Positions 4,010 to 57,606 of a stretch of DNA of 64,000 nt are shown here, one piece after another. The position numbers and the translations under genes are program-made. How positions within the stretch are numbered: position 1 is the stretch's first letter; every line of letters starts with the position of its first letter. The notes below the pieces were generated by a model that saw only the letters and a list, made by a program, of their open reading frames with translations, was not told the DNA's origin and ran no database searches. Origin of the DNA: Nannocystis exedens (GTDB taxonomy: Bacteria > Myxococcota_A > Polyangia > Polyangiales > Polyangiaceae); NCBI GenBank assembly GCA_945861885.1, contig CAMAVR010000007.1, positions 23,964 to 87,963 on the forward strand, given 5' to 3'.

Positions 4010-4084
4010 ACGACTTCATCGACGCTCGCTTGGCCGGTGCCACGTTATCGTCGGCCCACTGCTGACGTTGCTAACAGGGGCCTC

Positions 4085-4165
4085 GATGATCGACCTCGAT
4101 CATCGACCTCGATCATCGACCTCGGAGGTCGGAGGTCGGAGGTCGGAGGTCGGAGGTCGGAGGTC
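4085..4165. repeat. Nested tandem repeats between convergent genes
   Basis: Three 12-base units of the form GATCATCGACCTC (4085-4123) run into six perfect GGAGGTC heptamers (4124-4165); a further CGATCATCGAC follows at about 4171. The array lies between the AbiEii toxin and the permease. The permease stop codon falls inside the trailing CGATCATCGAC unit. No flanking protein or array signature of CRISPR is present. Confidence 0.85.
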
Positions 4166-4173
4166 GCCGTCGA

Positions 4174-5031
4174 TCATCGACCGTCGTCCTTCTCAGGAGC
4201 AAACGCCCTAGCCCCAAAAAGCAGCGTCATACTGGTCACCGCCACCGCAACCGCGCTAAAAATAAGCACATGCGGCGCTCTCAGCATCGCGGCCACCCCT
4301 TGGTCAAGCGCGGCCCCCATCGACACTCCGCTTCTCGGACCGAACCCTAAAAACGCGAGCGCCGACTCGCTCACCACGATCGCCGCGGCCGACGATCCGA
4401 GCTGAACCGCCGCGATCGGCAGCAGATGCGGCGCGATATGCTTCGCCAAAATTCGTGCTCGCGTTGCCCCTAGTGACCGCGCCGCATCGACAAACGCGAT
4501 GTTTCGCAGCACCCTCGTCTGCGCTAACGCGAGCCGCGCGAACGGCGCCCATGCCGTTACCAAGAACACGACCCCCAAGAGCCACGGCGCTCGCACTCGC
4601 ACCGCCGCCAACACTGTAACGGCGAATAAAAAGCTTGGAATCGCCTGAATTACGTCGCATCCGCGCGATACGAAGCGCTCGTACGCCCCGCCTCGGTACG
4701 CCGCCGCAGCCCCTAGCGGAACACCGATTGCAAATGCCCCGAGTGACACGCACACCGCCAAAATCGTCGCTGACAGCTCGCCGTGCGACAAAATAGCCAG
4801 CAGATCAACCCCCGCCTCCGACGTCCCCAACCAATGCGACGACGACGGCCCCTCCCACGCGCGCGCCGGGTCGAAGCGCGAGGGCGATTCGGAATAGAAA
4901 AGGACAGCGGCGCATGCGAGCGCGAAATTGGCAAAGAGCGGAATCGCGTACGCAACGCGAACAACGAGCGCTTTCACGCGCGAGCCGGATCGTTCATCCG
5001 ATGCATTGCCGCCGCTGACCATCGCTCTCAC
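4174..5031 (-). CDS. ABC transporter permease, DppC/OppC type
   Basis: A 285-residue inner-membrane permease of the peptide/nickel importer class. One N-terminal helix (about 24-45) is followed by the periplasmic motif HWLGTSEAGVDLL (66-78), which matches the family H-x-LGTD-x-x-GRD pattern. The EAA loop that docks with the ATPase lies at about 180-204 (VDAARSLGATRARIL). Its GTG start overlaps the stop of the DppB-like gene upstream (GTGA, 5028-5031), so the two form the membrane pore together. No substrate-binding protein or ATPase gene of this system is in the window, so the substrate cannot be told. The 3' end runs into a tandem repeat. Confidence 0.88.
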   Translation of the reverse strand: MRAMVSGGNASDERSGSRVKALVVRVAYAIPLFANFALACAAVLFYSESPSRFDPARAWEGPSSSHWLGTSEAGVDLLAILSHGELSATILAVCVSLGAFAIGVPLGAAAAYRGGAYERFVSRGCDVIQAIPSFLFAVTVLAAVRVRAPWLLGVVFLVTAWAPFARLALAQTRVLRNIAFVDAARSLGATRARILAKHIAPHLLPIAAVQLGSSAAAIVVSESALAFLGFGPRSGVSMGAALDQGVAAMLRAPHVLIFSAVAVAVTSMTLLFGARAFAPEKDDGR

Positions 5032-5951: not shown

Positions 5952-6597
5952 CTCCGTCCTCTGCCGCATCGCTTTCTTCTGGCCCTGCGTCGGAGAATCG
6001 CTCTGGCGGATTCAGCGGGGCAACGGGCGGCCCGGAGGCATTGCAGACTTCTGGAACATCGGCGCCACCATCAATACCATCGACCGCGTAGGTTGGACTC
6101 GCGATGCAGATTCTCTGCTCTTGATCGCTCTCCAAATTCTGCGCGTACCACGGCGCGCCCAGCACCGTTGAGCACTGATACCCGCCGCGGCAGCTGCTGG
6201 CTTTTGAACAGGTGGCCATGCAAAAAGAGCGGGCAAACCGCGAAACCGAGCGATCGTTGTAGGGGCAGCCAGGCATGCTCCCATTAAACAGCACGCAAGC
6301 CGACCCGCGCGGACAACCGCCACCAACGCAGTTGTAGATCGTGCAGTAGCCGCCAGGCTGCGACGTATCGCACAGGCGATCGCCTCGCTGTGAGCAGTCG
6401 GTTGAAGAGACGCACTTGTCGCCGATTGACGGCGTGCATCCGGTAGCAAACGCAGCAAAAGCAGCAATAAACAGCCCCGTAAACGTGCCCGTGCCCGTAA
6501 ACGTGCCCGGCTTGTTCTGACGCTTTTGCGCGGAGGAGAAAAAGCCGGGCACGTTTACGGGCACGGGCACGTGTACGGACTCTTTTAGACTCAACAT
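5923..6597 (-). CDS. Cysteine-rich lipoprotein with a palindromic repeat inserted in its 5' coding region
   Basis: About 224 residues. The lipobox (AAFATGC) lies near residue 54, unusually far from the start. The intervening codons are made largely of two inverted copies of the CCCGTAAACGTG repeat (6476-6511 and 6544-6578), read in frame as [11 protein letters not shown] and [12 protein letters not shown]. There is no ATG, GTG or TTG between the second repeat copy and the hydrophobic core, so translation must pass through at least one copy or start on a GTG inside it. The mature part carries many cysteines in short spacings (DKCVSSTDC, YNCVGGGC), as in secreted disulphide-rich myxobacterial proteins. 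Function unknown. It overlaps the start of the permease genes downstream. Confidence 0.65.
   Translation of the reverse strand: MLSLKESVHVPVPVNVPGFFSSAQKRQNKPGTFTGTGTFTGLFIAAFAAFATGCTPSIGDKCVSSTDCSQRGDRLCDTSQPGGYCTIYNCVGGGCPRGSACVLFNGSMPGCPYNDRSVSRFARSFCMATCSKASSCRGGYQCSTVLGAPWYAQNLESDQEQRICIASPTYAVDGIDGGADVPEVCNASGPPVAPLNPPERFSDAGPEESDAAEDGDASDDTRDY
6476..6511 (-). repeat. CCCGTAAACGTG-family repeat, copy B (inside the lipoprotein gene)
   Basis: Same 36-base sequence as copy A. Together with the inverted copy at 6544-6578 and a 32-base spacer, it forms a long imperfect palindrome within the signal-peptide-coding region of the lipoprotein gene. Confidence 0.9.
6544..6578 (+). repeat. CCCGTAAACGTG-family repeat, copy C (inverted relative to copy B)
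   Basis: Reads GCCGGGCACGTTTACGGGCA on the plus strand, the reverse complement of copies A and B with one or two changes near its outer end. It is in frame in the lipoprotein gene and could fold with copy B in mRNA or single-stranded DNA. Confidence 0.9.
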
Positions 6598-7051: not shown

Positions 7052-7989
7052 ACACGCTCACCACTTCAAAAAAACCGCAGAATTTTTACAGGGAGGGCGG
7101 GAGATCGGGAGTTGTTTTTAGATCGGACTTCCCAAATAAATCCTCCCGCCCTCCCGCCCTCCCTGTTAAGTTTTTTAGCGAGCACAGTGCGCGAACAAGC
7201 GGCCTAATTGCGAGCGTTGCCCTTCTAGCGGGCTGCGCGAGCGGGTCGCCGCTCCTTCACCCGGCCGCACCGCTCCCAAAAGGCCAAGTGCGCGGCGTTG
7301 CCGGTTTTAGCAGCACGTTTGCCGTCGGTTCGGCTGCGAAAGCGATTTCCGAGGCTCGCGCTCACCCGTCGGTGGCAGGTGTTGCAGTTGATCCACAGTT
7401 CTCTCGTGGCGCGCTCGTGTCGGCCGCATTGGCACCGGGCGTCGCTCCGTTTTTCGCGGCGCGCGTTGGCGCCGGCAGAGGGTTTGAAGGCGGCTTGGCT
7501 TACACCGGTCGCGGCGCACGAATCGACGTGCGCAAAGCTTGGTCGATTGACGACATCTCGATCTCGGCTGGCGTGGGCGGCTCTGCGCTTTTTTACGGCG
7601 CTTCTCTCGGAGGCGAGCCGCTCCCCCGCGTCGATTTGAGTTCGCTTCGCGGCTACGGCTTCGATGTTCCACTTCTCGTCGGCTGGGAAAGCGCGGCGGG
7701 GGCATATTCTGCGTGGGGCGGCGTGCGCGCCGGCTTCGAACATGCGCAAATTGCGGCCGTCACGAGCGAACAAAAAAGCCCGCCGCTGTCAACAGGCCCG
7801 GCGCCGCTCTCCGCCGATCGAGCGTACGCAGGTGGCGTCGGAGGGGTCGCCATCGGCCTCGGTCCGATCCACGCGGCGATGGAAGTGAGCGTCTCGTACC
7901 AGTCGATCGTCGGCCGCTACGACGGCGTCAGAGGCTTCGTCGGCGGAATATCGGTCATGCCGGCCGGCGCCCTCTGGTGGCGTTTTTAG
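7048..7989 (+). CDS. Outer-membrane beta-barrel-like lipoprotein with a hairpin repeat near its start
   Basis: About 313 residues. The signal peptide core and lipobox (LIASVALLAGC) lie near residue 55. The only start-type codon in frame before it is the GTG at 7048, overlapping the ferredoxin stop. The codons between are occupied by a GC-rich inverted repeat (7088-7111 and 7143-7166). The mature part alternates Gly and aromatic residues in short strands (GVGGSALFYGASLGG, VSYQSIVGRYDG) and ends in Phe (LWWRF), the usual signature of a beta-barrel inserted by the BAM machinery. A lipobox plus barrel is unusual, and the lipidated Cys may be fortuitous. Function unknown. It may be translationally coupled to the ferredoxin. 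Confidence 0.6.
   Translation: MNTLTTSKKPQNFYREGGRSGVVFRSDFPNKSSRPPALPVKFFSEHSARTSGLIASVALLAGCASGSPLLHPAAPLPKGQVRGVAGFSSTFAVGSAAKAISEARAHPSVAGVAVDPQFSRGALVSAALAPGVAPFFAARVGAGRGFEGGLAYTGRGARIDVRKAWSIDDISISAGVGGSALFYGASLGGEPLPRVDLSSLRGYGFDVPLLVGWESAAGAYSAWGGVRAGFEHAQIAAVTSEQKSPPLSTGPAPLSADRAYAGGVGGVAIGLGPIHAAMEVSVSYQSIVGRYDGVRGFVGGISVMPAGALWWRF
7088..7166. repeat. GGGAGGGCGGGAG inverted repeat (hairpin)
   Basis: A 24-base left arm (7088-7111) and a 24-base right arm (7143-7166) are complementary with two mismatches, separated by 31 bases. The right arm is followed by TAAGTTTTTT, so it might also act as an attenuator or terminator after the ferredoxin gene. It lies in frame inside the next gene. 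Confidence 0.85.
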
Positions 7990-10724: not shown

Positions 10725-10790
10725 ACGGTTCGATTTACCGGAACCTGGCCAAATTGCAGGATCAATTTTGGCGTCTGCAACAAGCTAGAA

Positions 10791-10834
10791 GGATCGAGCA
10801 CGCACCGCGGAGCCGAGACCCCCCGCCGACCGCT
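10791..10834 (-). repeat. Partial third copy of the toxin-locus inverted repeat
   Basis: About 44 bases from ATCGAGCACGCACC through GAGACCCCCCGCCGACCGCT match the outer end of the right inverted repeat (18277-18323), in the same orientation. It sits between panC and the Rpn nuclease gene. The 10725-10900 gap holds no gene. Confidence 0.8.
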
Positions 10835-10900
10835 CAAGTGGCGACACAAGTGCGCAGGTCGAGCGTACCAAGAGAATGAGGTGATTTGTTCAGGCTTTGA

Positions 10901-11860
10901 TTACAAGCGTCGTTCCGTTTTTAGCCGTCCGCGAAGAGTGTTGAGCTCCTCGATACCAGCTTTTTCTAGCGCTTTCATCTGGTCGGCGGAAATCGATATC
11001 CCTAGAACATCGCACAAATCAACGATGGCCTGGCGTAGCCCCTTGGCCTTCCCCATCGCTTCGCCTTCCGCGAGCCCTTCAGCCTTTCCTTCGGCCTTTC
11101 CTTCGGCCTTTCCTTCGGCCCTCCCGGTGGCTCTCTCTTTTTCGGCTGTCGCTCTCGCTGTCTGCTCTGCTAGCTTGTCGCGATCGTAAATCTCGAATTC
11201 ATCGCGCGTAAACGACGACATTCGCACGACTTCGTACGCGTCGCGGATTGTCGGCTCGCTGATGTTCGCCGGTATGCTGCGCGCCGTCTCGGCTTGCCTG
11301 AAAAAGTGCGCCCACTGATCGACGATCGTCTCGAAGTTCTCCCCCTTCGTGTACTTTTCGAGCTCGAGAAAAACGAACCGCAGCTGTTGCAGAACATGCC
11401 CATTTCCGCCGCCATCTTCGCGGAAGCGAAATCGGCTCAGCATCGGAATCGGCGGCGTGCAGCTTGAGTCGGGCCACAAATTGAAGCCGCAAATCGTCAC
11501 GCCGACCACATCATTGAGCATCGGATAGGCATCGCCGACGCCGAGCTGCGTCGCATACGCTTTCGCAACGTTGTAGACGACGCGCTTTTCAAACTCGGCG
11601 ACGCTTAGCACTTGCATCTCGACGACGTAGCGCGTGCCTCGCTTATCAAGGCACTTTACGTCGACAAGCGACAGCTTCATCTCTTCGACATACGGCCCGC
11701 GCTGCTCCGGCGTTAAATACTCGATGTCGGCGATCTGCGCGTCGCCCTGAAGGCCCAGAAGGCTGTCCAAAAAACTGATCAGGATGCGCTTATGCGCCGG
11801 CTCTCCGAACACGCGCTTAAACACGGAATCGGCCTTTGGATCAGCAAACACGGGGCGCAT
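10901..11860 (-). CDS. Rpn / PD-(D/E)XK nuclease-family putative transposase
   Basis: A 319-residue member of the recombination-promoting nuclease family (transposase_31-like). The N-terminal motif FADPKADSVFKRVF is followed by the catalytic core: SLVDVKCLDKRG, then YVVEMQV gives the D...E-x-Q of the PD-(D/E)XK fold (about residues 62-84). The C-terminal tail contains the tandem repeat GKAEGKAEGKAEG, encoded by 12-base CCTTCGGCCTTT units near 11082-11121; such tails are common in this family and vary in length. These proteins nick DNA and promote RecA-independent recombination. The gene is flanked by a piece of the toxin inverted repeat on one side and fragments of the toxin gene on the other. 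Confidence 0.85.
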   Translation of the reverse strand: MRPVFADPKADSVFKRVFGEPAHKRILISFLDSLLGLQGDAQIADIEYLTPEQRGPYVEEMKLSLVDVKCLDKRGTRYVVEMQVLSVAEFEKRVVYNVAKAYATQLGVGDAYPMLNDVVGVTICGFNLWPDSSCTPPIPMLSRFRFREDGGGNGHVLQQLRFVFLELEKYTKGENFETIVDQWAHFFRQAETARSIPANISEPTIRDAYEVVRMSSFTRDEFEIYDRDKLAEQTARATAEKERATGRAEGKAEGKAEGKAEGLAEGEAMGKAKGLRQAIVDLCDVLGISISADQMKALEKAGIEELNTLRGRLKTERRL

Positions 11861-11883
11861 GGCCCAAAATCTACTCACGGGGT

Positions 11884-12200
11884 ACAACCTCGTCAAGTCG
11901 ACGGCGACGGCTCTGAATCAGCGATTGAAACAACGCCGGATCATCCTTTTTACAAGAAGCGATAGGCGCGGCGTACAAGGCCGGCGGTGTGCGCGGAACA
12001 GCCGAAGCACTGTTCGTCAATCCCGCGGTTCAATCGTACAAGACTATGAAGGCGGCGGAAAGCGCGGGGGACTACCGAACAGCCGGTCGGAAGGCGTGGG
12101 GCGCCGCGTCTGCCGCATCGTCAACGCTCACAGCGGGCGTTGGGGCAAAAAAACCTTCTAAAAGCGGGAGCGAAATAGGTCGCCGGAGCCGCCGAACGCG
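11884..12200 (+). pseudogene. Decayed Hint/pretoxin fragment of the polymorphic toxin gene
   Basis: Two blocks match the intact toxin gene. Bases 11884-11955 resemble 16260-16345 (end of the Hint core; TTPDHPFYK in the correct frame). Bases 11956 to about 12190 resemble 16667-16880 (pretoxin region; GGVRGTAEALFVNPAVQSY). The intervening 320 bases are missing and the junction shifts the frame into a stop. The N-terminal region and toxin domain are absent. There is no gene in 11861-12224 apart from this relic. Confidence 0.85.
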
Positions 12201-13516: not shown

Positions 13517-13527
13517 CCTATCGGGTG

Positions 13528-14412
13528 ATGTTTTCCAACTCGCGTGAAACGTTTCTCCCAGAAACCCTGGTTGCATTTCTTGCCGTTTCAGAGCTCGGGA
13601 CTGTACACGCCGCAGCGAAGTCGCTCGGCCTTGTTCAAACCGCCGTCACGCGGCGAATTCAGGCGCTCGAAGGTGCCACCGGAGCGACGCTATTTCTCCG
13701 TTCGCGCCGCGGAATGGTGCTCACCGAACCGGGACGAACCCTTGTGAGCTACGCGCGTCGAATGAAAGAAATTGAGGCGGAGGCGTTGGCGCTAATGCGC
13801 GGAGAATCGTCGCAGCGGCAAGAACAGATTGTGATCGCAAGCCCGTCGAGCCTCGCGTCTGCGCGGGTCGTTCCGAAATTGGCAGGCATTCTCAGCTCTA
13901 ACCCTGGGGTCGCTATTCAGCTTTGCGTTTCGGACGACCGAATCGGCGTCGAACTGCTCAAGCGAAACGAAGTCGACATTGCTCTTCTCCCCGCCGCCGA
14001 TGTCCCCCTTGAATTTGAATCGCGCCGCCTAGAGCCTGAAATTTATGTTGCCGTCGGCCCAACTGCCTGGAAAAAACGGCAGTTTGAATCGATTGTGCGA
14101 AGCGAGCGAATTGTCGATTTTGATTCGAGAGACGATCTCACCTTCGATTTTTTAGCGGAGCACAATCTTCTTGATATCGCACAGCGCAATCGCCATTTCG
14201 TCAACAATACACATGTTCTCGCAGAGCTCGTCGCGCAAGGGGTCGGCTATACCGTTCTTTCGATCGAGTTCGCAAAAGCGCTTTTCGCGACAAGCGGAGC
14301 GCTCGCAAATATCGGCGGCGCGCGCACCCACAACGTCAGCATCGCGCTCGCATGGTACGCGCGGCAATACCCAACAAGAGCCTTCAAAGAAATCATGACG
14401 GCGCTGAAGTAA
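13528..14412 (+). CDS. LysR-family transcriptional regulator
   Basis: 294 residues. An N-terminal winged helix-turn-helix (about 12-70: VAFLAVSELGTVHAAAKSLG, then QTAVTRRIQALE) precedes a periplasmic-binding-protein-like effector domain starting at about residue 95 (QIVIASPSSLASARVVPKL). It probably senses a small molecule; the ligand is unknown. The gene is divergent from the dihaem cytochrome pair, the usual arrangement for a LysR regulator and its target. I chose the ATG at 13528 over a GTG three bases upstream. The start codon is embedded in a small dyad, consistent with autorepression. Confidence 0.88.
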   Translation: MFSNSRETFLPETLVAFLAVSELGTVHAAAKSLGLVQTAVTRRIQALEGATGATLFLRSRRGMVLTEPGRTLVSYARRMKEIEAEALALMRGESSQRQEQIVIASPSSLASARVVPKLAGILSSNPGVAIQLCVSDDRIGVELLKRNEVDIALLPAADVPLEFESRRLEPEIYVAVGPTAWKKRQFESIVRSERIVDFDSRDDLTFDFLAEHNLLDIAQRNRHFVNNTHVLAELVAQGVGYTVLSIEFAKALFATSGALANIGGARTHNVSIALAWYARQYPTRAFKEIMTALK

Positions 14413-14446
14413 ACGAACACCGCGCACCGCTCTATCCCCCTCTGTC

Positions 14447-14494
14447 CCCCTCTGTCATCCATCGCTACGCTCCGGACCCCGCTGCTCACCCGCG
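14447..14494 (+). repeat. Outer inverted-repeat segment, left of the toxin locus
   Basis: CTGTCATCC, then TCGCTACGCTCCGGACCCCGCT; the reverse complement occurs at 18389-18440. The 60 bases between this segment and the main repeat are not matched on the right side. Confidence 0.8.
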
Positions 14495-14556
14495 CATCCA
14501 GCAACGTCGTCCGCTAGAACACGCCCCATTTGCGCCCACTGGCACAGCCATTTAAC

Positions 14557-14803
14557 GCGGTCGGCGGGGGGTCTCGCATCTGCGGTGCGTGCTCGATTCC
14601 CGTTTCTTGTTTTCGGGTAGTCGCTCCGAAGCATTGGGTTTACGCGAGCTCTCACGTTCGTGCCGGAGGTCTCCGCGCGCTCCTCGACACGAGCCCCCCG
14701 CCGCCCGCTCCCACTGTGGGGGCCCTGCTCGCGCGGGGGCGCCTTTTGGGTAGCCGCTGTCGTCGGTGCGGAGTCCAGTCCCCAGAAAACGAGGCGCTTC
14801 GCC
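14557..14803 (+). repeat. Main inverted repeat, left copy (IR-L) of the toxin locus
   Basis: About 247 bases that recur in reverse complement at 18071-18323. Read by eye, a 114-base core (14605-14718 against 18162-18275) is identical, with scattered differences outside it. The 14413-14978 interval contains only these repeats and the toxin gene leader. Short reading frames in it have no support. Confidence 0.92.
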
Positions 14804-14978
14804 TTTCGAACCCACCTTGATGGTTCGTGGCGCTTATCCTTAGAGCATTGGCTCGCGCTCTTTTTACGCGCAGGAGCGGAGCGATGGATTGAGACGGCGG
14901 TTGTCCGATTTTGCGTCAGGGCGTTTGGGAACCGATGTCATTCTGTTGACACTGGAAAGTCGCCCACTGCACTTACGG

Positions 14979-17339
14979 ATGCAAAATCGATTGCTTCGTC
15001 TTTATTTGACGATGTTTTTTACCGGCGTTGCGCTGCTTTCAGGCTGCGGCGGTAAAGCGAGCTTTGACGACGCAACCGACGAACTCGAGCCTATCAACAC
15101 GACATCACCCGCGCCCGCTAACCCATGGCCTTGGGGGGTTGAGTCGGGGGCGCCGCCGCTGCCGCCATTCTTTGAAGGCGATCGTGAGGGCGCGCCTGTT
15201 GGTCATCCCCGACGTCCCGAGGAAGATCCGCGGGCGGCGCAAATCCGCTTCAACGAAATAGAACGGCAAAGAGAAGAAGCGGAGATACAAGAGGGTATCA
15301 GTGCGTTCCAGCGCGGACAGATACAGTATGAGCGGTGTCACAAGGATGCGGAAGAGGCGCGACTTCGACAACTTGAACGAGACGACCCACTGCTGGGTGA
15401 CAGACTAAACCGGCGACTATCGAGGGGCGTAGGTAGATATACGGCTCGCTACCTCGTCGGGCTACCTGCGGAGCAACTGATACGAGCGCTCGACCTACCC
15501 GAGGAGCAACTCATGCGGGAGGTGCCGTTCCCCACGGAACCGCCACTACCACAAGAGGATAACCCTGCCGAGCGCACGGAGCGGGCGCGACGCCAACAGG
15601 AAAGACAGCGGGTCGAGGCACAGCAACTACAGCGGGAACAGGCCGCAGAAGCAAAGCTGAGGGAGCGGCAACAAGCCCAGGCCGCAGAAGAACAAAGACT
15701 GCGGCAACAAGTCCAAGCCGCAGAAGAACAAAGACTGCGCGAGCAAGCGGCAGAAGAACAACGACTGCGGGACGATCCTGAATACGCAGCCCAGGTAAAA
15801 CGCAAACAGGAATTCCTGCGCGCAACGGAGTTAAGGCAGCGGATCGTCGCATACGACGAACAGCGACGACAAGACGAGATCCGAAAGCGCCAACTGGGCG
15901 ACGAGAGAGAGTCTCGGACGCCTGTCGACACGAGGCAGCGGGAACAAGCCGCTCGAGCCGCTAGCCGAGAGCGCAGACCAGAATACCAGCGCGCGACCGA
16001 AACAAAACAGCGGATGGCCGCATACGACGAACAGCGACGACAAGCCGCAAAAGAAGAGCTCCAAAAGCGCGAGGACGCGCAACCGAGTCGTGGGCATCAA
16101 TGTTTCATCGCAGGAACTGCCATCCTCACACCCGACGAGGACGAACCGCTAAAGCCGATCGAGTCGTTGAAGAAGGGCCACGAAGTCTGGTCATGCAACA
16201 CCGGCGAGGGCAAATGCTACGTGCGAACAATCGAAAGCACGTCGACCACGGTAACAAGCCACCTCGTCCTTATCAGTACGAAAAATGTCGATGATTCCGG
16301 CTCCGAATCAACTCTTGAAACAACGCCCGAACATCCTTTTTACAAAGCAGGCGAAACAGCTACGACGTTAGTTCGTGATTTGCGCAAAGGGGATATTCTG
16401 AGGGGGCATGAAAAAACCCGTTTTCGAATAACGAGAATTCAAGAGCGAGAACTTCCTGATCCGATCTTCGTCTACAACTTTCAAGTGGATGGCGAAGAAG
16501 GCAACAACAACTACTTCGCCGGCGAACACCTCGTCCTCGTGCACAATTGCGGCATTGCTCAGATCGGACAGATGCTTCACGGCTTTGTCGACGGCGCGAA
16601 GCAAAGCGCGAGCGACATGGCTCACGCGATAGATCATCCGATCGCAACGTATCGTACGGCGAAAGAAGCGATAGGCGCGGCGTACAAGGCCGGCGGTGTG
16701 CGCGGAACAGCCGAAGCACTGTTCGTCAATCCCGCAGTTCAATCGTACAAGTCCATGAAGGCGGCCGAAAGCGCGGGAGACTATCGAACAGCCGGTCGGA
16801 AGGCGTGGGGCGCCGCGTCTGCCGCATCGTCAACGCTGACAGCGGGCATCGGGGCGAAAAGCATTCTAAAAGCTGGAGCGAAGTCGGTCGCGGGCGCGGG
16901 CAAGAACGCGGTGAAAGAGGTCGTCGAAGCCTCTAAACCGGCGGCGCCAAACGCGGGTCGCGGAACGATGAGGACGACGGCGGGTGAAGCAGCGAAGGCG
17001 GCAGAGGGGGTAGCGGTTGCTGGCTCGGCTCTTGAACAGGCGTCTCAGGCCGCACTGCAGGCGGCTGAACGCATTAGCGAATTCACAACGCCAGCCAAGC
17101 ATCTACCGGGAGCAGGTGGAAACTGGACCAGATTTGCCGCGAGGGAAAATCCCACAACGCTGATTCAGGAGGCCCTTCGCGCCAAAGGGGCGCAGTTCTT
17201 CCCCAATAACCGTGGTGATTCATTCAAAGTCATCTACGACTTTGGGCGAGTAATCGGCGAAAGGGGAGAAACATCAATTCGTGTGATTTTCGGAACAGGA
17301 CCGGTCAACGGCCGGGTCTGGACCGCGTTCCCGCAATAG
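14979..17339 (+). CDS. Lipoprotein-anchored polymorphic toxin: coiled coil, Hint domain, C-terminal toxin
   Basis: 786 residues. Lipoprotein signal (MQNRLLRLYLTMFF, lipobox LLSGC), a Pro-rich linker, then a long Gln/Glu/Arg coiled coil with internal repeats (AAEEQRLR units; two AYDEQRRQ blocks). A Hint (hedgehog/intein) domain starts at HQCFIAGTAIL and ends at LVLVHNC, with TTPEHPFY inside; in polymorphic toxins it self-cleaves to free the C-terminus. An Ala/Gly-rich pretoxin stretch (VRGTAEALFVNPAVQSY) leads to the last 80 residues (KHLPGAGGNWTRF, YDFGRVIGERGE, GRVWTAFP). These look like a small nuclease toxin; a BECR-fold RNase is my guess. The immunity-like gene follows nine bases later. 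The ATG at 14979 was chosen for the signal peptide; an in-frame TTG lies 30 codons upstream. Confidence 0.82.
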   Translation: MQNRLLRLYLTMFFTGVALLSGCGGKASFDDATDELEPINTTSPAPANPWPWGVESGAPPLPPFFEGDREGAPVGHPRRPEEDPRAAQIRFNEIERQREEAEIQEGISAFQRGQIQYERCHKDAEEARLRQLERDDPLLGDRLNRRLSRGVGRYTARYLVGLPAEQLIRALDLPEEQLMREVPFPTEPPLPQEDNPAERTERARRQQERQRVEAQQLQREQAAEAKLRERQQAQAAEEQRLRQQVQAAEEQRLREQAAEEQRLRDDPEYAAQVKRKQEFLRATELRQRIVAYDEQRRQDEIRKRQLGDERESRTPVDTRQREQAARAASRERRPEYQRATETKQRMAAYDEQRRQAAKEELQKREDAQPSRGHQCFIAGTAILTPDEDEPLKPIESLKKGHEVWSCNTGEGKCYVRTIESTSTTVTSHLVLISTKNVDDSGSESTLETTPEHPFYKAGETATTLVRDLRKGDILRGHEKTRFRITRIQERELPDPIFVYNFQVDGEEGNNNYFAGEHLVLVHNCGIAQIGQMLHGFVDGAKQSASDMAHAIDHPIATYRTAKEAIGAAYKAGGVRGTAEALFVNPAVQSYKSMKAAESAGDYRTAGRKAWGAASAASSTLTAGIGAKSILKAGAKSVAGAGKNAVKEVVEASKPAAPNAGRGTMRTTAGEAAKAAEGVAVAGSALEQASQAALQAAERISEFTTPAKHLPGAGGNWTRFAARENPTTLIQEALRAKGAQFFPNNRGDSFKVIYDFGRVIGERGETSIRVIFGTGPVNGRVWTAFPQ

Positions 17340-17348
17340 GAGCCAGTA

Positions 17349-17774
17349 ATGACCTTTGAGATTGAAGTAAAGAATGCACGTATTGATGGTCCTCAAGTGC
17401 CACGGGCTGACTTCGAGATGCTTCTACGATTTGTATGCGACTTCGTCGTACGTATTGCCGAGATTGATATTTTTCGAGAGGTCGAATTCCCATTCGTTGA
17501 ATTTGCCGCCCAGCTTGCTGCGTGGTTTCAAGCTGAACGCCCAGGAAATTTTGACTATGAATCAATGGAGAGCCCGGCGGCGGGACTTATCTACTTTCAT
17601 CGATCGGATACTGGAGAGTGGCGCGTAGGTTCAACGTTGCCAGGGAATCCACGCTCAGCTGCCATAACAACCGATGAACTACGGGGGGGGGTCGAGGCGT
17701 TTCTGATCGGGGTACCCACCATCGTCGACGCCTTTGGTGTCGACGTGCGGCGTTTCCTTTTGAAAAGACCTTAG
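17349..17774 (+). CDS. Probable immunity protein for the Hint toxin
   Basis: 141 residues, cytoplasmic and acidic, no signal peptide. It lies nine bases after the toxin stop, the position and size expected of an immunity gene. It has an alpha/beta look, with an N-terminal strand (MTFEIEVKNARIDG), a helical centre and a C-terminal helix (TIVDAFGVDVRRFLL). No family is recognised with confidence; the assignment rests on context. A GGAG site is visible just upstream of the ATG. It would bind and neutralise the C-terminal toxin in siblings carrying the same locus. Confidence 0.65.
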   Translation: MTFEIEVKNARIDGPQVPRADFEMLLRFVCDFVVRIAEIDIFREVEFPFVEFAAQLAAWFQAERPGNFDYESMESPAAGLIYFHRSDTGEWRVGSTLPGNPRSAAITTDELRGGVEAFLIGVPTIVDAFGVDVRRFLLKRP

Positions 17775-17823
17775 CCAATACCGGCCACTGCTGTGACTTC
17801 CGAGATGATGTCTCCCCGTCCTG

Positions 17824-17915
17824 ATGGACTCTGAGTCAGCGTCGACGCTCGAGACGGGCGTAGTGGCGGAAAAGTCTTCTAAAAGCAGGAGTGAAATCGG
17901 TCGCCGGAGCCGACG
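17824..17915 (+). pseudogene. Second decayed fragment of the toxin gene
   Basis: In frame it reads DSESASTLET, matching the Hint segment of the intact gene near 16297-16325. It then jumps directly to a segment like 16850-16885, so the deletion is larger than in the first fragment. After the jump it shares a frame-shifted tail (SEIGRRSRR) with the 11884-12200 relic but not with the intact gene, so the two relics share ancestry. The rest of 17775-18447 holds only the right inverted repeats. Confidence 0.75.
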
Positions 17916-18070
17916 ACAGGCGGCGCTCATCCTTGGTGCATTGGCCCCAGCGCCTTGGCTTCTGAACAAATTTAAGCGAGCACACCGCGTACGAAACTGC
18001 CTCGTACGAACAGAGCGCGACCTAATGCTCCGAGAACGAGTCGCTACTGACCACCTAAATTATTTCTGGT

Positions 18071-18323
18071 GGCGAGGCGCTTCATTTTTTGCAGTGGGGA
18101 GTGGACTCCGCACCGACGTACAGCGGCCACCCAAGTGGCGATCCCGCAGCAGCAGGGGCTACACAGTGGGAGCGGGCGGCGGGGGGCTCGTGTCGAGGAG
18201 CGCGCGGAGACCTCCGGCACGAACGTGAGAGCTCGCGTAAACCCAATGCTTCGGAGCGACTACCCGAAAACAAGAGAGGGGAATCGAGCACGCACCGGAG
18301 ATGCGAGACCCCCCGCCGACCGC
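18071..18323 (-). repeat. Main inverted repeat, right copy (IR-R) of the toxin locus
   Basis: Reverse complement of 14557-14803. The 18162-18275 core appears identical to 14605-14718. The interval between the two copies (14804-18070) holds the toxin, the immunity gene and the second relic. Confidence 0.92.
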
Positions 18324-18388
18324 TCTAAGCGGCCGTAAGAGAGGTTAGAGCAGTGCTCGTACAGCGAGGAGCGGGGCTCAGGATGACA

Positions 18389-18440
18389 GGGGGGGCGGAT
18401 GAGCGGGGTCCGGAGCGTAGCGAGGGATGACAGTGGGGGG
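18389..18440 (-). repeat. Outer inverted-repeat segment, right of the toxin locus
   Basis: Contains GCGGGGTCCGGAGCGTAGCG and GGATGACAGTGGGG, the reverse complement of 14447-14494. It ends eight bases before the stop of the DUF4911 gene. Confidence 0.8.
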
Positions 18441-18447
18441 GGATTTT

Positions 18448-18684
18448 TTAGTTTTCAATGATGACTGCTAGCTCTTTTGAAAAATCGGCGATTAGCTGAT
18501 CGAGCTCTGCTTCGCGGCATGCTGGCGCGGCTAGCGTGATGTCGCCCCCCTGCTCCGCGAAGAGCTGCGCTAGCCCCTCGGAGGCTTCGACTATGCCTTT
18601 TAGAAACACGACGTCGCGCGCGCTTACCACGAGCCGGCGCGTGATCATCCCGTCTCCAACGAATGGTGGCACCGACGACTTCAT
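18448..18684 (-). CDS. DUF4911 family protein
   Basis: 78 residues. The family pattern is visible: an arginine-led strand (TRRLVVSARDVVFLKGIVEA), a helix ending EGLAQLFAEQGG, a strand ITLAAP, and a C-terminal helix. Function is unknown throughout the family. Its start lies three bases after the stop of the SDR-like gene upstream, so the two are probably one transcript. The 3' end abuts the toxin locus repeats. Confidence 0.72.
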   Translation of the reverse strand: MKSSVPPFVGDGMITRRLVVSARDVVFLKGIVEASEGLAQLFAEQGGDITLAAPACREAELDQLIADFSKELAVIIEN

Positions 18685-18687
18685 CGG

Positions 18688-19806
18688 CTAAGGCTGCGCC
18701 GCCAAAATTGCCGATTCGGATGGGCGACGCTTTTTTTCCGTGATTCGCTGCTGCGCATAACTGACTAACTTATCGACGTACGTCTCGAGGGACGGGCACG
18801 AGATCCCGCTCCCGGCGAGAAGCCGCGCCGTATTTGTTGAATCGAATGTCACCGGCCTAACAAGCGAATCAACGAACGCCCGCGGCGACTTCGCAAACCG
18901 CTCAAGCCCCGGCGTCCGCAGAAGCGCCGCCGTTAAATTGGCTGGAATGGCCCCCCGAGGCGCAGCGCGGCCGCCAGCCGCGGCGACAAGCTCAAAAAAC
19001 TGGCGGGCCGTTTGCGGCGCTGGGTCGACCAGATGAAATGTCGCCCCAATGGCGCGCGGATCGCGCCCAATCGCGCATGCCGCTCGCGCCACGAAATCAA
19101 CAGGCACCACATGAAGGGGCAGCTCGCCCCCTCCCGGAAGCGGGAGCGCCACGTCGGGCGGTGACGTTAGAATGAGCTGAATAAGAAAATATGGCCCGTC
19201 GAGCCGATCGACTTCGCCCGTCCGCGAATCGCAAATCAGTGTTGCGGGGCGCAAAACGACGATTGGGACGCGATCGCTCGATTTTTGCACGATAAGCTCG
19301 GCGCGCGCCCACGTCTCTTCGACCGCATTGGCGAACCGCTGCCCCGCTCGCAGCTCACTCTCGAGCACAACCCCTCGGCGATCGCCTGCGACGTGCGCTG
19401 TCGAGTGCATCACAAAAGCTCGCAAATCCTTCGTATTTGCCGCAAATTCGAGCACTTCTCGGGCGCCGTTGATATTCACGTGCGCTGCCACTTCGCGCTG
19501 GATCCCTAAATAGGTGATCGACGCGGCGTGGTGGATGATGTCGACCTCGCTACAAAGCGCGTGCCACTCGGCCCCCGAGAGCCCCATGTCGAGCGACGCC
19601 ACGTCGCCATCGATGAGATTCAGCCGCGAGCGGGACGCCTCGGGGAGCGCGGCAAGCGCCTGCGCCGCTTCGGCTGCGAGCTTTGGCAGGACTATCGCAT
19701 GCACATAGGTGCGCGGCGACGCGAGCAGCTCAGCGCACACGGCACGCGCCCGAAACGAGGGGAAACCGGTGAGAAGAACAACTTCGTCAAACCCAGAGCG
19801 AGCCAT
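18688..19806 (-). CDS. Extended SDR / thioester-reductase-like protein without the usual catalytic pair
   Basis: 372 residues. It resembles the NAD(P)-binding extended SDR and male-sterility reductase group: an N-terminal strand and turn VVLLTGFPSF, an internal strand LIDGDVA, then IIHHAASITY and FVMHSTAHVAGD. In active members the next motif is F-x-N-x-Y-E-x-S-K. Here it reads FANAVEETWARAE, so both the catalytic Tyr and Lys are missing. It may be a binding or regulatory protein, or use another residue. The ATG at 19806 fits the family start; an in-frame TTG lies 15 codons upstream. It is divergent from frr. Confidence 0.7.
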   Translation of the reverse strand: MARSGFDEVVLLTGFPSFRARAVCAELLASPRTYVHAIVLPKLAAEAAQALAALPEASRSRLNLIDGDVASLDMGLSGAEWHALCSEVDIIHHAASITYLGIQREVAAHVNINGAREVLEFAANTKDLRAFVMHSTAHVAGDRRGVVLESELRAGQRFANAVEETWARAELIVQKSSDRVPIVVLRPATLICDSRTGEVDRLDGPYFLIQLILTSPPDVALPLPGGGELPLHVVPVDFVARAACAIGRDPRAIGATFHLVDPAPQTARQFFELVAAAGGRAAPRGAIPANLTAALLRTPGLERFAKSPRAFVDSLVRPVTFDSTNTARLLAGSGISCPSLETYVDKLVSYAQQRITEKKRRPSESAILAAQP

Positions 19807-27067: not shown

Positions 27068-27107
27068 GTCGAGGGAGCACCGATGCGCCATGCGCGCCGC
27101 GGAGCTT

Positions 27108-27500
27108 CCTCTCCCGCTTCGCGGGAGAGGGAAAGCGTGACGAAGTCACGCGAGGGTGAGGGCACGCGTCCGTCGCGGAAGAACACACGTCGACCAAGCT
27201 GTGGCCCAGTGACGCGCTGCACAGATGCAAGCTTCGACGAATGACAAGAACGACGTCGTCGACATCGGCAATCACGTTGGCGTTTGTGATACGCAGGATG
27301 GTAGGCCCTTGCCGGATGAGCCAAAGCTCGCGACAACCATTATGATAAACCGCCTTCCGCGATGCGTGCGATGGGCCGTCGAGTTCGAACACCATTGGTG
27401 GTTGCTTCGATTTTGATCTTTGTATGTGAATTTAAGAACCCTGAGCCCTCACCCTCGCGTGACTTCGTCACGCTTTCCCTCTCCCGCTCCGCGGGAGAGG
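27108..27500. mobile_element. DUF559 element, internally deleted copy, with terminal double-hairpin repeats
   Basis: A 56-base repeat (27108-27163) recurs inverted at 27445-27500. Each contains two hairpins: CCTCTCCCGC with GCGGGAGAGG, and GCGTGAC with GTCACGC. Between them lies the gutted DUF559 gene. The copy sits between two convergent genes, 41 bases after the mutase stop and 38 bases from the hemG stop. Two perfect 9-base ATGCTCTGG repeats (27501-27518) abut the right end. Confidence 0.8.
27201..27395 (-). pseudogene. DUF559 endonuclease-like gene, 5'-truncated relic
   Basis: Encodes FELDGPSHASRKAV, then RELWLIRQGPTILRI and VIADVDDVVLVI, matching the C-terminal half of the intact copy at 50694-51047. 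The N-terminal half is missing, although the upstream leader (TTTGATCTTTGTATGTGAAT) is retained, so the loss is internal to the element. The original stop (TAG in the intact copy) is changed, and the frame reads through the terminal repeat into the end of the mutase gene on the other strand. Confidence 0.8.
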
Positions 27501-27537
27501 ATGCTCTGGATGCTCTGGATGCTTCAGGATTATGAGC

Positions 27538-50440: not shown

Positions 50441-50600
50441 AGCGAACGCTCCAGTGCGTGAAAAGTTCCGCCGCAACTGTCTCACGATTTCGCGAAAATC
50501 ACATCAGTGAATGACTGGCTGTCAGGCGACTACGAAATCGCGCCAGTTTCTTTATCTTTCACGAATCCTCTGCCACACCGCCAAGAAGCATAAGAAGCAT

Positions 50601-51175
50601 CCTCTCCCGCTTCGCGGGAGAGGGAAAGCGTGACGAAGTCACGCGAGGGTGAGGGCTCGCGCCCGTCGGTCAAGAACCCGCGTCAATCAAGCTCTAGCCC
50701 AATGCAGCGTCGCACAGATGCAAGCTGCGACAAATGACAAGAACAACGTCCTCTACATCGGCAATCACGTTGGCATTTGCGATACGCAGGATGGTAAGCC
50801 CTTGCCGGCTGAGCCAAAGATCGCGAAATCCATCATGACAAACCGCCCTCCACGATGCATGCGATAAGCCGTCGAGTTCGACCACCAGGCGCGCTTCGTG
50901 GCAGTAGAAATCGCATACGTACACTCCAATGGGATGCTGTCGTCGAAATTTCACCCCGAGCTGACGATTTCGTATCGCTGCCCAAAGAATGCGTTCAGGA
51001 ATCGTCGTTTCCCGACGAAGCCGCCTTGCCCGTTGGATGACGTCCATGACACTTCATCGGACGGGAACCTGTTGCGGTTGCTTGATTTCGATCTTTGTAT
51101 GTCAATTTAAGAACACTGAGCCCTCACCCTCGCGTGACTTCGTCACGCTTTCCCTCTCCCGCGAAGCGGGAGAGG
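50601..51175. mobile_element. DUF559 element, intact copy, with terminal double-hairpin repeats
   Basis: Inverted 56-base ends (50601-50656 and 51120-51175), near-identical to those of the 27108-27500 copy; CAT/ATG extends the match on both sides. Each end folds as two hairpins. The DUF559 gene lies between. The right end is 10 bases from the stop of the zinc-ribbon SDR gene. Two perfect 9-base AAGAAGCAT repeats (50583-50600) abut the left end. The element is 575 bp. Confidence 0.85.
50694..51047 (-). CDS. DUF559 domain endonuclease-like protein
   Basis: 117 residues of the DUF559/very-short-patch-repair-like PD-(D/E)XK group. The N-terminal RRETTIPERILWAAIRNRQL, GVKFRRQHPIG and VCDFYCHEARLVVELDG (acidic and Cys/His residues of the nuclease core) match the family. 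VVLVICRSLHLC forms the end. The family has a restriction-endonuclease-like fold, but its role is unknown. It is wholly enclosed by the element's terminal repeats and is the intact counterpart of the relic at 27201-27395. Start is the ATG at 51047. Confidence 0.85.
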   Translation of the reverse strand: MDVIQRARRLRRETTIPERILWAAIRNRQLGVKFRRQHPIGVYVCDFYCHEARLVVELDGLSHASWRAVCHDGFRDLWLSRQGLTILRIANANVIADVEDVVLVICRSLHLCDAALG

Positions 51176-51184
51176 ATGGTCCGG

Positions 51185-57534: not shown

Positions 57535-57606
57535 GCCGCCTTAGCTCAGTGGTAGAGCAGCGGTTTCGTAAACCGCAGGTCTGGGGTTCAAATCCCCAAG
57601 GCGGCT
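57535..57606 (+). tRNA. tRNA-Thr (anticodon CGT)
   Basis: 72 bases with a complete cloverleaf: acceptor GCCGCCT with AGGCGGC, D stem GCTC with GAGC, anticodon stem GCGGT with ACCGC around loop TTCGTAA (anticodon CGT, reading ACG), T stem TGGGG with CCCCA around TTCAAAT. Discriminator T; the CCA end is not encoded. Confidence 0.97.

Follow-up and report, generated by a model that had tools for sequence, protein, structure and literature searches.

A Hint-type toxin cassette between inverted hairpin repeats in Nannocystis exedens, with a pattern of arm identity that indicates concerted evolution

Repeats of the miniature inverted-repeat transposable element (MITE)-like and enterobacterial repetitive intergenic consensus (ERIC)-like types are palindromic intergenic units of 100-200 nt with terminal inverted repeats, and polymorphic-toxin loci are known for displaced cassettes. 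Here we describe a locus of Nannocystis exedens at which a lipoprotein-type polymorphic toxin gene and an immunity-type gene are enclosed by two long inverted arms. The window, that is, the whole stretch of 64,000 nt that was analysed, corresponds to positions 23964-87963 of contig C7 in a draft genome of 3.42 Mb and 89 contigs. Coordinates without a contig or locus label are those of the window, and the features are collected in Table 1. The arms are copies, one inverted to the other, of a non-coding hairpin repeat that is dispersed in the genome and whose family has so far been seen nowhere else.

The repeat resembles the MITE-like and ERIC-like repeats in being a palindromic intergenic unit with terminal inverted repeats, which measure 28 nt in the copy on contig C18 (L027 3277-3304/3418-3445) and 40 nt on contig C25 (L028 7092-7131/7221-7260). 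It differs from them in that only 8 copies were found and that the paired copies are homogenised within a locus. Repetitive extragenic palindromic (REP) sequences and bacterial interspersed mosaic elements (BIMEs) likewise place palindromes in alternating orientation between genes, but the units of the present family are far longer and its copies few; REPs usually exceed 100 per genome, according to the accessible part of PMC2817692. A search for PF01797 (Y1_Tnp, RAYT-type) gave 0 matches in the genome, and the same search was positive in 5 of 14 control genomes.

The cargo of the arms shares with the PT-HINT polymorphic toxins the Hint domain, the exchangeable C-terminal tip, the adjoining immunity-type gene and the remnants of displaced cassettes, and it differs from them by its inverted-repeat brackets and N-terminal lipoprotein-type signal. 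The SitA lipoprotein toxins of Myxococcus, in the accessible parts of PMC5562445 and PMC8546572, resemble it in their lipobox, in a C-terminal toxin part that is polymorphic and in the immunity gene that lies downstream. The window toxin, in contrast to them, has a Hint domain; the word "Hint" occurs 0 times in the main text of these two papers as far as it was accessible. In the literature searched, PT-HINT, polymorphic toxin and inverted repeats were not found together, and one paper combined inverted repeats with polymorphic toxin and gene conversion.

Local alignment showed that the left arm (14446-14886) and the right arm (18439-17983) are inverted copies of each other, with a score of 506 against a highest score of 52 among 200 Markov-resampled controls. 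Within the arms, 114 nt match without a break in inverted orientation, at 14605-14718 and 18162-18275, and no exact stretch is longer. The first-pass annotation of this DNA had described reverse-complementary repeats with an identical 114-base core and a second, shorter outer pair, and the alignment bears out both of these points; each arm measures about 440 nt, however, and not about 250 bp as was then proposed. The outer pair is 38 nt long, and the own-genome search revealed no third copy of it. Identity is uneven along the arms, being 95% in the outer pair, then about 40%, 97% in the core and 71% in the inner part. That is, the arms agree at 161 of 166 positions in the core (14553-14718), and the stretch 14500-14552 is nearly unalignable with the opposite arm (21/53).

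When the repeats were searched against the genome, further copies were found: a hairpin unit of about 170-190 nt is present in 8 copies at 6 sites, so that the repeats are neither unrelated to each other nor confined to a single occurrence. Two copies belong to the window locus, two to C25, and one each to C18 and C1, where they stand as single units; a partial copy lies on C52 and a fragment elsewhere in the window. The copies on C25 also form an inverted pair (L028 7060-7372 and 7442-7776), which has no toxin between its arms and is closed on itself, with a centre of 25-69 bp depending on the alignment that sets the inner edge. All six copies that were folded (the C52 copy and the fragment were left out) beat their shuffles, with z values from -2.4 to -6.7.

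The two inverted pairs were compared with each other. In the core, the arms of the C25 pair agree at 165 of 167 positions; core identity is 97-99% within the loci, against 79-81% between the window arms and the C25 arms. All 30 informative core sites group the arms by locus. Just inside the core, identity drops to 60-71% (112/157 in the window and 82/137 on C25), and the mismatch rates of core and inner part differ at both loci (Fisher 3e-11 and 4e-20). In a tree of the cores, the C25 arms were joined with a support of 99, and the window arms were split from the other copies with a support of 79. This pattern of identity indicates concerted evolution of the inverted arms through copying between them. 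Ongoing gene conversion had been raised as a possibility in the first-pass annotation, and copying between arms is now well supported. For yeast, PMC8604942 reports, in its accessible part, that template switching between short inverted arms both makes the arms alike and inverts the spacer. Sequence constraint was also considered as the cause of core identity and is a poor explanation, because the paired loci differ by about 20%.

Taken together, we think it likeliest, with a probability of roughly 0.6, that a toxin-immunity cassette lies in the centre of a hairpin pair whose cores are kept alike by inter-arm copying. The hairpin pair fills the gap between convergent genes, as the cargo-free pair does on C25. 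A polymorphic toxin-immunity cassette would then have come to lie in the centre of the pair; we infer this step, as well as the order of events, from C25. Copying between arms, by gene conversion or by template switching during replication, would keep the cores near-identical. The arms themselves may be a place where insertions are tolerated, and they might perhaps stop transcription from both sides. The region 14300-18700 has 11 terminator-like sites, where shuffled sequences average 5.6 (sd 2.3). A site common to both hairpin cores reads inward in each (14611-14631 on the plus strand and 18269-18249 on the minus strand). As for the toxin, its lipobox would anchor the protein and Hint would free the C-terminal tip, from which the DUF7878 protein may protect the producer; the families are supported by the domain matches given below.

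Several observations weigh against this history. The single C18 unit is 93-94% identical to the window cores, so that the window pair stands only slightly apart from it. The inner-zone sites are mixed (12 group by locus, 5 by side and 2 otherwise), and in the outer zone 0 sites group by locus, 3 by side and 1 otherwise; these mixed sites outside the core leave shared ancestry of both pairs as pairs unproven. Copying is also less easy across a 3.1-kb spacer than across the short centre of C25. Since the C25 pair is at a different place in the genome, it is not an empty allele of the window locus, and the relatives searched include no genome of the same genus. No allelic empty site could be read, because the LysR protein gave no match at E 1e-30 in 58 relatives (59 genomes with the present one; at most 40 candidates scored in each), and a scan of the genome-contig collection for the SDR protein gave 116 pattern matches, of which 0 were confirmed. 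Finally, the terminator-like sites are without a strong T run, and because of these poor tails the support for a transcription barrier is weak.

Other explanations of the bracketed cassette were weighed against the same data. Recombination between the arms might flip the 3.1-kb toxin segment, for which the 114 exact nucleotides in inverted orientation, the sequence exchange suggested by the homogenised cores and the spacer inversion reported in yeast can be cited. We nevertheless consider an invertible segment unlikely, for the neighbours that were scanned include no recognised recombinase gene, and flipping would not obviously switch expression because the segment itself includes the stretch just upstream of the toxin start. 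It is quite unlikely that the locus is a composite mobile unit, in which the inverted hairpin units would serve as ends and an unlinked transposase would mobilise the toxin and immunity genes. The hairpin units are indeed dispersed and have terminal inverted repeats of their own (28-40 nt), and 2.5 kb from the left arm there is a gene for a putative transposase of the Rpn family, with a hairpin-unit fragment on one side and a toxin remnant on the other. That fragment, however, is nearer to the C1 copy (68/97 in the core zone) than to the window arms (60/97 and 62/97). Moreover, there is no Y1 transposase in the genome, no arms are present on the sole visible flank of the toxin contigs C13, C48 and C78, and a search of 97 relatives, with 7 candidates scored in each, gave nothing of the arm family beyond short pieces. 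Excision or mobilisation as a unit had been envisaged in the first-pass annotation; it is disfavoured by the closed C25 pair, by the fact that no second cargo was seen between arms, and by the Hint loci of relatives, of which all 11 examined (of 14) were without brackets. With regard to a possible compound transposon or insertion sequence, the toxin and immunity open reading frames (ORFs), the two scanned between the arms, are not transposases; for these two, the earlier statement that none lies inside holds, and the Rpn-family putative transposase is outside the arms.

A single recent inverted duplication at the window locus, with no later conversion, would account for the outer 38-nt pair, which was found only here and means that locus-specific sequence is also mirrored. 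We regard such an event as improbable, since one duplication would give even divergence and the arms are patchy in identity, and since core and inner part contrast in the same way on C25. It is very improbable that two ordinary hairpin repeats came to flank the toxin through chance insertions and have never had a shared history. The single units on C18 and C1, including the closeness of the C18 unit to the window cores, would agree with such insertions; but in all four arms, those of the window locus and those of C25, the unit adjoins a common inner module at an identical junction, although the left inner module of C25 is badly diverged, and the cores group by locus. Beyond the hairpin pair with an inserted cassette that we favour, a more general proposal is that paired hairpins between convergent genes are docking sites that maintain themselves through inter-arm copying, receive toxin cassettes at their centre and may flip these, C25 being an empty site and the window locus a filled one. 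We consider this proposal rather unlikely.

The toxin contains a PT-HINT domain (PF07591, E 5.8e-08), and the following gene belongs to DUF7878; both matches are above the curated cut-offs, which upholds the reading of the first-pass annotation as a Hint-type toxin with a likely immunity gene. The start of the toxin at 14979 was chosen by us, while the mechanical ORF starts at 14889. By eye, its translation shows a signal-like sequence followed by LLSGC, which we take to be a lipobox. The Gln/Arg-rich linker contains internal repeats, and a remnant of a second linker (17830-17916) fits a displaced cassette. The tip begins at about 17070 and alone has no match in Pfam. A plasmid search with the tip found only two records. 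In Stanieria the match is to part of an Rhs protein (50% identity over 53% of the query), and in Exiguobacterium to part of a SAR2788-family protein (34% over 80%); a three-way alignment of these tips has 23 invariant positions. At all three loci, a DUF7878 gene directly follows the tip. Because of this adjacency, DUF7878 is likely to be the immunity family for this tip. By pairwise BLASTP, the window DUF7878 protein resembles that of Stanieria (E 9e-08) and shows no likeness to that of Exiguobacterium. A sequence search of the PDB gave nothing for the tip and one chance-level match for the immunity protein (E 0.61), and DUF7878 was not found in the literature searched.

Contigs C13, C48 and C78 each begin with a Hint relative, and the window itself has a degenerate copy at 11897-12200. 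C78 also has a second, displaced Hint end and a further ORF, and its paralogue bears a different tip, which is DUF4258-like at 24.5 bits against a cut-off of 25. Each of the three contigs is cut inside the toxin gene and therefore shows one flank only; no arm match was found on this flank. As a separate observation, part of the phoH gene that precedes the C13 toxin (L033 1620-1704) recurs at 88% downstream of the C78 toxin cassettes (L031 1846-1931); these pieces are possibly a direct repeat around one toxin locus split by the assembly. Outside this genome, a search with the C-terminal portion of the toxin, Hint included, found matches in 6 of 58 relatives. No bracketing inverted repeat was found at the 11 loci examined among 14 such Hint matches (E 1e-4); the loci in G068 and G074 and one of the two in G034 were left out, and locus L076 is cut by a contig end. 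One-sided repeats were present at three of the relatives' Hint loci, namely, a 77-bp pair at L070 and short palindromes at L074 and L075.

With regard to the setting of the hairpin family, 4 of the 6 sites lie between convergent genes (the window locus without the toxin insert, C25, C18 and C1). The strict count is 4 because the nearest recognised ORF at C52 is a DUF559 ORF on the plus strand; it becomes 5 of 6 if the DUF559 element is passed over. The fragment at 10779 sits between two minus-strand genes. Convergent junctions made up 19 of 117 in the background, giving P values of 0.008 for 4/6 and 0.0006 for 5/6; this background was taken with a crude ORF caller from the window and seven further stretches, hairpin sites included. 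The arm family was searched for in 97 relatives with 7 candidates scored per genome, a limit under which weak copies may have escaped; 10 of these relatives yielded pieces of 25-59 nt and nothing longer (best E 1e-5), which we judge to be chance matches in GC-rich sequence. A 23-base hairpin-end pattern had no exact match in genome or viral contig collections, and neither plasmids nor phages gave a match to the left arm.

Other repeats were noticed besides this family. Three related elements have terminal inverted repeats of 59-62 nt (50598-51178 and 27102-27506 in the window, and L030 7598-8546). In the L030 copy there is an open DUF559 ORF of 117 aa (PF04480, E 5.6e-28). Over 493 nt this copy shares 92% identity with the element at 50598-51178, and it matches that at 27102-27506 only in part. 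There are also near-palindromic repeats of about 85-165 nt, some of them related across contigs, in the window (4083-4180, 6477-6578 and 7085-7169) and elsewhere (L029 5101-5244; L032 586-689 and 4699-4844; L033 2556-2720).

The arm pair occupies the gap between the convergent genes for a LysR-type regulator and a DUF4911-like protein (Table 1). On the left, the Rpn-family gene is flanked by the hairpin-unit fragment and the toxin remnant. A search of the whole window with Rfam at the gathering threshold gave a tRNA at 57535 as the sole match, and no promoter-like sites were found in 14300-18700, against 1.2 expected.

Table 1. Features of the bracketed toxin locus and its surroundings (window coordinates)
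Feature	Position	Strand	Basis or remark
Outer short inverted repeat, left copy	14446-14483	+	36/38 identical with 18402-18439
Left hairpin unit, core of left arm, 172 nt	14547-14718	+	alignment; fold z -3.6
Left inner module	14719-14886	+	71% like right inner module
Lipoprotein-type polymorphic toxin	14979-17339	+	signal with lipobox, Gln/Arg-rich linker, PT-HINT, C-terminal tip
Immunity-type gene, DUF7878 (PF25297)	17349-17774	+	E 1.7e-11, above curated cut-off
Remnant of second toxin linker (displaced cassette)	17830-17916	+	sequence comparison
Right inner module	17983-18161	-	alignment
Right hairpin unit, inverted copy of 14547-14718	18162-18335	-	alignment; fold z -3.6
Outer short inverted repeat, right copy	18402-18439	-	36/38 identical with left copy
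LysR-type regulator, left neighbour, pointing at element	13525-14412	+	family scan
Small DUF4911-like gene, right neighbour, pointing at element	18448-18648	-	E 4.4e-06, 27.1 bits, slightly below curated cut-off of 29.3
Rpn-family recombination-promoting nuclease / putative transposase	10901-11896	-	2.5 kb from left arm
Degenerate toxin remnant adjoining Rpn-family gene	11897-12200	+	sequence comparison
Fragment of another hairpin unit	10779-10842	-	own-genome search

If our reading of this locus as a hairpin pair with a cassette in its centre is right, it would be a bacterial case in which non-coding inverted repeats are kept alike at each locus despite a 3.1-kb toxin cassette between them. 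It would also link a toxin tip to DUF7878 as the family that probably confers immunity to it. Moreover, it would serve as a warning that long inverted repeats around a toxin need not signal a mobile element.

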